In this document: positions 37,346-54,815 of the stretch, one piece after another
Position numbering within the stretch: position 1 is the stretch's first letter
How the letters are laid out: every line of letters begins with the position of its first letter
Source of the DNA: Heliophilum fasciatum
GTDB lineage: Bacteria > Bacillota > Desulfitobacteriia > Heliobacteriales > Heliobacteriaceae
Direction: 5' to 3'
NCBI RefSeq assembly: GCF_004341395.1
Contig: NZ_SLXT01000016.1
Location: 1-64,000, forward strand
DNA: 64,000 nucleotides
Notes under the pieces: generated by a model
Databases searched by the model: none
Told to the model about the DNA's origin: nothing
What the model saw: the letters and a program-made list of their open reading frames with translations, nothing else
Program-made: the position numbers and the translations under genes

Positions 37346-37380
37346 AAAAATCCCTTTGACCATGTGTCAAGGGGATTTTT
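37346..37380. terminator. terminator downstream of rpmB
   Basis: AAAAATCCC with TTTGAC pairs with GTCAAG and GGGATTTTT around a CATGT loop; T-rich on both strands, so it probably serves rpmB and the Hpt operon. A second hairpin without a T-run (GGAAAGCGG/CCGCTTTCC, 37421-37456) lies between it and the Hpt stop. Confidence 0.8.
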
Positions 37381-53332: not shown

Positions 53333-54079
53333 CTATTCTTCATAGATCATCTTCCGCGTCATGCCCCCGTCGATGACCAAATTTGCCCCCGTAATAAAAT
53401 CATTGGATGGGTCGGTGAGATACAAGCAAGCGCGGGCAATGTCATCAGGTCTACCGACTCGTCCTGCCGGATGCTGCCGGTGATCGTCATCGCGCAGCTT
53501 GGCATAGTCCCCCGTTTCGATCCAGCCCGGACTGATGGCGTTAACCCGGATATGATCAGGCCCCAGCGACAAGGCCAACGCATGGGTCAAGCCAAGAATA
53601 CCGCCTTTCGACGCAGCATAAGCTTCCCAATGCGGTTCCGACATGGTCGCCCGTGTGGAAGCCAGATTGACGATCGACCCGCCACCGTGGGTGCGCATGA
53701 TCTTCGCCGCTTCTCGCGCGCAAAGAAAAGTCCCCCGCAAATTGCCCGCCAGCACATCATCCCATTCTTCTACCGTAATATCATAAGGTGACTTCATAAA
53801 ACCTACGCCGGCGTTATTGATCAAAATATCGAGGCGGCCTAACTCTTTGCTTATCTGGACAAACAGATCTTCGATCTCCCGCGGTCGCCGTACATCGATC
53901 ACGGCAGAAATAACCTGCTGCTCTCTTGATGCAATCAAGCCTACCGTTTCTGCGAGCATTGCTGCTTCTTTATCAATGATGACGACACTTGCCCCCGCTT
54001 CAGTATAGGCAAGCGCAACGGCACGGCCAATGCCACGTCCTGCACCGGTGACCAAGGCAACTTTACCGGTAAACATCAC
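53333..54079 (-). CDS. short-chain dehydrogenase/reductase
   Basis: A 248-residue classical SDR. VALVTGAGRGIGRAVALAYTEAG binds the cofactor, INNAGVGFMKSP follows, and the active site is IVNLASTRATMSEPHWEAYAASKGGI (Ser, Tyr, Lys), then NAISPGWIETGDY. It resembles glucose dehydrogenase and 3-oxoacyl reductase lines and cannot be assigned a substrate; it is well away from the fab cluster. GTG start 8 bases after AAGGAG. A perfect palindrome GCTGATCAGC (54117-54126) lies 38 bases upstream. Confidence 0.88.
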   Translation of the reverse strand: MMFTGKVALVTGAGRGIGRAVALAYTEAGASVVIIDKEAAMLAETVGLIASREQQVISAVIDVRRPREIEDLFVQISKELGRLDILINNAGVGFMKSPYDITVEEWDDVLAGNLRGTFLCAREAAKIMRTHGGGSIVNLASTRATMSEPHWEAYAASKGGILGLTHALALSLGPDHIRVNAISPGWIETGDYAKLRDDDHRQHPAGRVGRPDDIARACLYLTDPSNDFITGANLVIDGGMTRKMIYEE

Positions 54080-54261
54080 TGCTTCAACTCCTTATACTGA
54101 TCACGCATCTTGGATTGCTGATCAGCGATATACAAATAAATTCTCAATTTGTTGGTAAATCCTATTTTCATCACTTATGAAGCGAACTCCTTCCCCGACG
54201 TGAAAAAAACGGCGATGCCTGTTGAGCAAAGATATTTCCATAGAAAAAAGATGCAGGATTT

Positions 54262-54293
54262 TATTTTGTTTTTGTTGAAACAAGAACAAAATA
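54262..54293. repeat. 32-bp inverted repeat over the ygbA promoter
   Basis: TATTTTGTTTTTGTT (54262-54276), GA, AACAAGAACAAAATA (54279-54293): arms match at 14 of 15 positions. It is AT-rich, has no T-run and sits over the inferred -35 of ygbA, which fits a repressor or sensor-regulator site rather than a terminator. Confidence 0.8.
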
Positions 54294-54303
54294 CCCTTAA
54301 ATA
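54275..54303 (+). promoter_or_regulatory. candidate promoter of ygbA
   Basis: TTGAAA (54275-54280), a 17-base spacer and TAAATA (54298-54303). The -35 is in the centre of the inverted repeat. Confidence 0.5.
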
Positions 54304-54327
54304 CGGCAAAGGAGCTACCAACGAATT

Positions 54328-54762
54328 ATGCCTGATAACCAGAATTACTTTGGCCAGGACACTCCATCGTCTCCGCTGTTCCGCTCCCCTTCTACGCAAA
54401 CAACCAAACCAATGGGATCAGCAGAGCAACAAAAGCACCGGCGCATTCAACGAGAGTGTGCAACGGTAGCTGCCATGATCGCTCTCTACTGCCGCCATCA
54501 TCATCAATCCCCAGACGTTACAGACGGACTTTGTTCTGAGTGTCAACAGTTGCACGAATATGCGATGGCCCGGGTAGCACGGTGCAAGTTTGGGGCAACC
54601 AAACCAACCTGCGGCCAATGCACGATTCACTGCTATCGCCCGGCCATGCGCCAGCGCATTATCGAGGTCATGCGTTTTGCCGGGCCGCAAATGCTCTTTC
54701 GCCATCCGCGCTTGGCCCTCTGGCATATGATCGACAGTTGGCTAAGACCCCCACAGCAATAA
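54328..54762 (+). CDS. ygbA: nitrous-oxide-stimulated-promoter family protein (YgbA-like)
   Basis: A 144-residue protein of the YgbA_NO family, which in enterobacteria is controlled by the NO sensor NsrR and responds to nitrosative stress. The conserved core has CRHHH, LCSECQQLHEYAMARVARCKFGATKPTCGQCTIHCY and VMRFAGPQMLFRHPRLALWH; seven cysteines in this stretch suggest metal binding. The first 35 residues are not conserved-looking. AAAGGAG lies 13 bases before the ATG, a long spacing. Biochemical role unknown. Confidence 0.88.
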   Translation: MPDNQNYFGQDTPSSPLFRSPSTQTTKPMGSAEQQKHRRIQRECATVAAMIALYCRHHHQSPDVTDGLCSECQQLHEYAMARVARCKFGATKPTCGQCTIHCYRPAMRQRIIEVMRFAGPQMLFRHPRLALWHMIDSWLRPPQQ

Positions 54763-54772
54763 CCATGCCATG

Positions 54773-54815
54773 AAAAAGCCGTTGTGATGCGGACAACCAT
54801 CACAACGGCTTTTTT
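54773..54815. terminator. strong bidirectional terminator after ygbA
   Basis: AAAAAGCCGTTGTGATG pairs perfectly with CATCACAACGGCTTTTT around an 8-base loop; serves both ygbA and the convergent DUF4230 gene. Confidence 0.9.

Follow-up and report, generated by a model that had tools for sequence, protein, structure and literature searches.

What does the long inverted repeat in front of ygbA in Heliophilum fasciatum do, and if a protein binds to it, does this protein respond to nitric oxide (NO) or to redox state? YgbA is a small cysteine-containing protein. An earlier note on this DNA had stated that its gene is controlled by NsrR in enterobacteria, and for E. coli this is indeed said in the accessible part of a published study (PMC5320621). 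Protein binding to the repeat would give a handle on the control of YgbA in a phototrophic anaerobe, outside the enterobacterial NsrR setting; at present the repeat stands as a single operator candidate in one genome. The stretch of DNA analysed (the window) comprises 64 kb with a G+C content of 51.4% and lies on contig 16 of a genome assembly of 3,142,229 bases in 73 contigs.

The inverted repeat and its neighbours

The locus contains the following features, in window coordinates:

53333 to 54079, minus strand: SDR-family oxidoreductase gene, divergent from ygbA, with a common intergenic region of 248 bp (open reading frame list and domain search)
54262 to 54293, no strand: near-perfect inverted repeat with 15-bp arms, candidate operator (sequence and chance controls)
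54266 to 54289, no strand: two overlapping TTGTT-N8-AACAA elements with Rex-like spacing, at 54266-54283 and 54272-54289, agreeing with TTGTTAANNNNTTAACAA in 10 and 11 of 14 positions (sequence scoring)
54275 to 54302, plus strand: TTGAAA-16-TTAAAT, highest-scoring sigma-70 hexamer pair in front of ygbA, 9 of 12 positions, doubtful (relaxed hexamer scoring)
54308 to 54314, plus strand: Shine-Dalgarno sequence of ygbA, AAAGGAG (sequence)
54328 to 54762, plus strand: ygbA-family gene for 144 amino acids, PF11756 YgbA_NO (open reading frame list and profile matches)

The gene had been labelled ygbA before, and its membership in the family is upheld by profile matches of its product to PF11756 (138.5 bits, cut-off 25) and to NCBIfam NF007714 (125.1, cut-off 88). 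The dyad in front of it reads TATTTTGTTTTTGTT-GA-AACAAGAACAAAATA and is made up of a left arm at 54262-54276, a GA centre at 54277-54278, and a right arm at 54279-54293. It is thus present as the earlier note had described it, with 32 bp, 14 matches in arms of 15 and a centre of two bases; the interval 54262-54303 given there also includes the -10 hexamer proposed in it. The only arm mismatch, T54271 against G54284, would become a G-U pair in sense RNA. Counted from the start codon, the dyad spans positions -66 to -35, which leaves a gap of 34 bases to the ATG at 54328. As the SDR gene is divergent and starts at 54079, the dyad sits in a divergent intergenic region, on its ygbA side, at a distance of 182 bases from the SDR gene. 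The divergent genes on both sides rule out a terminator. TTTGTTG, a part of the dyad core, occurs a second time at 54148-54154, closer to the start of the SDR gene.

Farther away in the window, a perfect 15-bp hairpin flanked by A and T runs occurs at 54773-54814 between ygbA and a convergent DUF4230 gene and is likely a two-way terminator. Another hairpin at 37346-37380, with 14 of 15 pairs and an A-run and a T-run at its ends, is terminator-like as well.

A symmetry of this kind might also be functionless and have arisen by chance where a T-rich run is followed by an A-rich run. The arms are 83% A+T and contain a TTTTGT tandem, the dyad was not found conserved in the relatives searched, and with many AT-rich intergenic regions per genome one lucky case somewhere is not impossible. 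Against this explanation, which we regard as improbable, stand shuffles which kept the composition by treating the T-rich left and the A-rich right block separately: an equal dyad, with its centre near the middle and a loop of up to 4 bases, appeared in just 60 of 200,000 of them. First-order Markov resampling of the 248-bp intergenic region did not yield an equal dyad in 1500 trials. When the 64 kb were scanned for 15-base arms mismatched at no more than one position, with a loop of up to 12 bases, three places were obtained, the ygbA dyad and two others which are GC-richer and by eye look like terminator hairpins. In 197.5 kb of the own genome, a non-random and partly overlapping sample consisting of the window and the loci fetched for other searches, the ygbA dyad is the only one of such quality with an arm G+C below 0.25 (0.17, the next one having 0.27). 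The symmetry of the dyad in its intergenic region is beyond local chance and non-random.

With a probability of roughly 0.6 we take the dyad to be an orphan, lineage-specific operator of some dimeric regulator, which probably represses ygbA. Two of the arguments for this reading are the symmetry, well above local chance, and the location between divergent genes, where operators are common and a terminator would be out of place. A regulator gene was not found among the three nearest genes by domain search, which counts against an operator.

Promoter region and leader RNA

In the proposed mechanism a regulator recognising the sequence of the dyad would bind there, in the core promoter region of ygbA, as a single dimer or as two. 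A protein covering positions -66 to -35 would most simply block RNA polymerase, which makes repression the likeliest mode. We infer protein binding, repression, and ygbA at 34 bases rather than the SDR gene at 182 bases as the target. Some TetR-family repressors have long operators which are bound by two dimers. The dyad has in common with these a length near 30 bp and the overlap with a promoter; it differs in that no such regulator gene was identified adjoining it.

An operator is further suggested by the overlap of the dyad with the best hexamer pair (9 of 12) and with three of the four pairs matching at 8 of 12 positions, which have their -10 at or in the left arm; the fourth (54152, -10 at 54176-54181) is located wholly upstream of the dyad. 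The promoter is weakly defined, which counts against the operator. Promoter prediction on the plus strand gave no pair passing the rule of the tool at the dyad or between the dyad and ygbA, and the TTGAAA (54275-54280) and TAAATA (54298-54303) hexamers proposed in the earlier note are absent from the predicted matches. With either TTAAAT or TAAATA as -10, transcription would start at about 54309-54311, that is within the Shine-Dalgarno sequence, so the position of the ygbA promoter is uncertain. From the former claim that the arms overlap the -35 of ygbA there remains a fair TTGAAA hexamer within the dyad, while the promoter to which it was assigned is not established.

The main rival to an operator is a hairpin in the leader RNA. 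With a promoter farther upstream, the dyad would be transcribed into an AU-rich hairpin of 14 pairs, which ends 14 nt before the Shine-Dalgarno sequence and would stabilise the mRNA or tune translation. A start farther upstream is argued for by the best hexamer pair itself, as its predicted start falls inside the Shine-Dalgarno sequence. The sense 32-mer folds to a stem of 14 pairs with a loop of 4 bases (-11.5 kcal/mol, z -4.66), which is uninterrupted because the lone DNA mismatch becomes a G-U pair; the antisense stem is interrupted (-7.7, z -4.20). In the context of a 73-nt leader the fold has -14.4 (z -2.56), equalled by 3 of 200 shuffles, and the DNA strand 54240-54315 folds at -12.2. 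The wobble on the sense strand slightly favours a role of the RNA, and a hairpin of this length fitting a function at the transcript level counts against the operator. Any DNA palindrome folds in this way, however, and one wobble is weak evidence; in addition a comparable hairpin is missing before the 44 orthologous genes, and only the 8 of 12 pair at 54152 is situated entirely 5' of the dyad, the other three having their -10 at or in the left arm. Altogether a leader hairpin is an unlikely explanation of the dyad.

Comparison with sites of NO and redox regulators

The dyad has no good match to the boxes of NsrR, HcpR2 or CRP. For NsrR a consensus of the form 11-1-11 was scored; its best match in the ygbA region is 12 of 22, within the range of 10-16 obtained for 44 other upstream regions, and ATGCAT does not occur in the 248-bp intergenic region. 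The repeat does therefore differ from the NsrR box, as had been noted before. What it shares with the NsrR operator of E. coli ygbA, so far as the accessible part of PMC5320621 describes it, is an inverted repeat before ygbA; the NsrR operator has an 11-1-11 arrangement with ATGCAT-type half-sites, whereas the dyad here is of 15-2-15 form without such halves. HcpR2 sites (GTAACnnnnGTTAC; PMC1274295, accessible part) have in common with it the inverted repeat and the NO-stress setting of anaerobes, but the best match in the ygbA region is 6 of 10. The CRP-type box TGTGAnnnnnnTCACA likewise reaches 6 of 10 at best.

Among the boxes tried, Rex is the only one with a score standing out among 45 ygbA upstream regions. 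The consensus TTGTTAANNNNTTAACAA gives 11 of 14 for the ygbA region, the highest of all (the other 44 have 8-10), and this score is made of the dyad's own TTGTT and AACAA; with the variant TTGTGAANNNNTTCACAA the two elements score 8 and 9 of 14. At least 11 of 14 was reached in 103 of 2000 local resamplings. According to the accessible part of PMC5886521, Rex site prediction uses TTGTT and AACAA halves 8 bases apart with at most one G/C in the span of 8 bp between them, and the accessible part of PMC2883068 gives a Rex motif TTGTGAAW4TTCACAA. The halves and their spacing are found in the ygbA dyad, even twice in overlapping fashion, as in Firmicutes Rex operators such as ATTGTTANNNNNNTAACAAT and the like (PMC5886521, accessible part). 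The full consensus and the AT-rich span are absent: the dyad deviates from the Rex operators described there in the inner positions, in spans with too many G/C (TTTGTTGA and GAAACAAG, with 2 and 3 G/C), and in its long outer arms.

Across the own genome TTGTT-N8-AACAA occurs 9 times compared to 7 in the control and is thus not clearly enriched. From the seven places outside the dyad, six are within an open reading frame and one (locus L051) is between open reading frames, flanked by genes which by eye are sensor-like and threonine-synthase-like; an evident link to Rex or NO was not seen by eye at any of the seven. With no clear enrichment, no evident Rex target at the other places, scores of 10 and 11 of 14, too many G/C in the spans, and 11 or more reached in 103 of 2000 resamplings, Rex was set aside as the default reading. 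Literature searches on Rex with hcp and on heliobacterial operators yielded nothing on the ygbA dyad.

The genome encodes the usual redox-sensing families, which is in favour of an operator: domain searches revealed three Rrf2 proteins, two proteins with the Rex-type domain PF06971 over cut-off, and one strong and three weak matches to the CRP/FNR helix-turn-helix. One Rrf2 gene (L096 2080-2529) is followed by a ferredoxin-like gene, recognised by eye from its cysteine motif, and by a Prismane/Hcp gene. Its product is over the cut-off of the Rrf2 superfamily and below every equivalog cut-off (NsrR 40.7 vs 182). In the promoter region of these three genes, TTAGGTGCTAGAATACCTAA at L096 2040-2059 (G000:C7:15539-15558) was read by eye as TTAGGT-N8-ACCTAA; it covers the -10 of a promoter judged good by eye, TTGACA-17-TAGAAT, and from its position is a candidate autoregulatory box. 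As a dyad it is no better than chance and remains under the score cut of our dyad listing. Of 2000 resamplings of the 152-bp region, 656 contained a 6-bp dyad of some kind when loops of 0-12 were allowed, and 68 when the loop had to be 8. The best match of this chance-level element, read by eye, is 8 of 12 in the ygbA region and 6-9 in the other regions. Owing to its chance level it was dropped as a yardstick for an NO box and was not used to exclude control of ygbA by Rrf2. The Rrf2 protein gave no tblastn match in the 2.8 kb around the Hcp gene starts, mostly upstream, of two genomes of the same family (G001, G005). On the same contig as the hcp locus, at L097 753-3114 (G000:C7), another Rrf2-family gene lies directly 5' of a Prismane-family gene, by eye CODH-like, in the same direction.

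As a special case of the operator, its regulator may respond to NO or redox state, for instance a Rex-type protein or an Rrf2 protein with a diverged box. This narrower proposal is possible but doubtful. It is favoured by the control of E. coli ygbA by NsrR, by the twofold Rex-like arrangement with the top score of 45 regions, and by the presence of two PF06971 proteins and of an Rrf2 gene in the hcp locus. It is weakened by the modest Rex scores and their frequency in resampled sequence, by spans exceeding the rule of at most one G/C, and by the lack of evident Rex targets, as judged by eye, at the seven other TTGTT-N8-AACAA places of the genome; the element of the hcp-linked Rrf2 gene, being at chance level, neither shows nor excludes a shared regulator.

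Further copies and relatives

In the own genome the 28-bp core of the dyad has no second copy at up to 3 mismatches, and 81 further genomes of the class gave no match either. The single copy means that it is not a dispersed repeat, which is in favour of an operator, and a mobile repeat is ruled out. The outer pattern TATTTTGTT-N14-AACAAAATA matched at up to 3 mismatches in 9 places of the own genome, with 6 for the reversed control pattern, and the inner pattern at up to 2 mismatches gave 28 matches, with 35 in the reversed control. At five of the eight other places of the outer pattern no NO gene was seen nearby by eye. No regulon emerges from these pattern searches, which counts against the operator. 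One place with 2 mismatches to the outer arms, L068 1501-1532 (G000:C6:37057-37088), is situated between open reading frames and has perfect 10-bp arms, ATTTTGTTAT and ATAACAAAAT, around a 10-base centre. This place may be related to the dyad before ygbA, and at about 460 bases from the place lies a gene which by eye is XRE-type-like (L068 1994-2749).

The search for YgbA covered 61 genomes and gave matches in 44, among them the own genome. The orthologue set of 44 upstream regions consists of 43 from relatives plus that of a distant relative (L033), found by scanning genome contigs with the YgbA protein; none of them is of the same genus. A second match in G024 was too weak to pass the cut-off and was excluded. 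Up to 260 bases before the start of the tblastn match were used, with start codons unrefined and 161 and 80 bases only for L024 and L030. Some dyad scoring at least 8 is present in 15 of the 44 regions, and a dyad comparable to the one before ygbA is by eye present in none, which also counts against the operator. Seven of the regions are from other heliobacteria, and of these L030 alone holds any dyad, a GC-rich one. The intergenic DNA matched in none of 60 relatives, the own genome being the sole one of 61 with a match, an exact search of viral contigs with 20 positions of the core gave no match, and the 19 plasmid records with YgbA all have below 60% identity and are of no use for the operator.

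The earlier note had suggested the possible involvement of another NO or redox regulator and had proposed to look for the repeat in the genome, near hcp, and before ygbA orthologues. Each of these searches turned out negative, with the core single at up to 3 mismatches, no comparable dyad upstream in the hcp locus read in the own genome, and 0 of 44 orthologue regions, none of the same genus, so that the suggestion is not supported.

A possible trace of NsrR control was encountered in relatives. The word ATGCAT occurs in 11 of the 44 orthologue upstream regions, with 2.6 expected, and in one genus of the class (g6) 10 of 14 genomes (L004, L006, L009, L013, L014, L017, L023, L025, L027, L036) have it 37-60 bases ahead of where the YgbA match begins; these are close relatives, and thus the ten cases are not independent events. 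Its letters are like the core of the NsrR half-site published as gATGyAT-N5-ATrCATc (PMC1274295, accessible part), and this likeness, seen at the level of a half-site, suggests that ygbA may be under a control similar to that by NsrR in those relatives. With ATGCAT there and none in the ygbA region here, which is suggestive only, Heliophilum might have rewired ygbA from NsrR-type control to a regulator acting on ygbA alone through a 15-2-15 operator of a kind not described before, a scenario to which we give little credence. In four other heliobacteria (L118, L120, L121, L122) ygbA adjoins a divergent gene which by eye is iron-type alcohol dehydrogenase-like instead of the SDR gene found here, so the neighbourhood of ygbA is not kept in the family.
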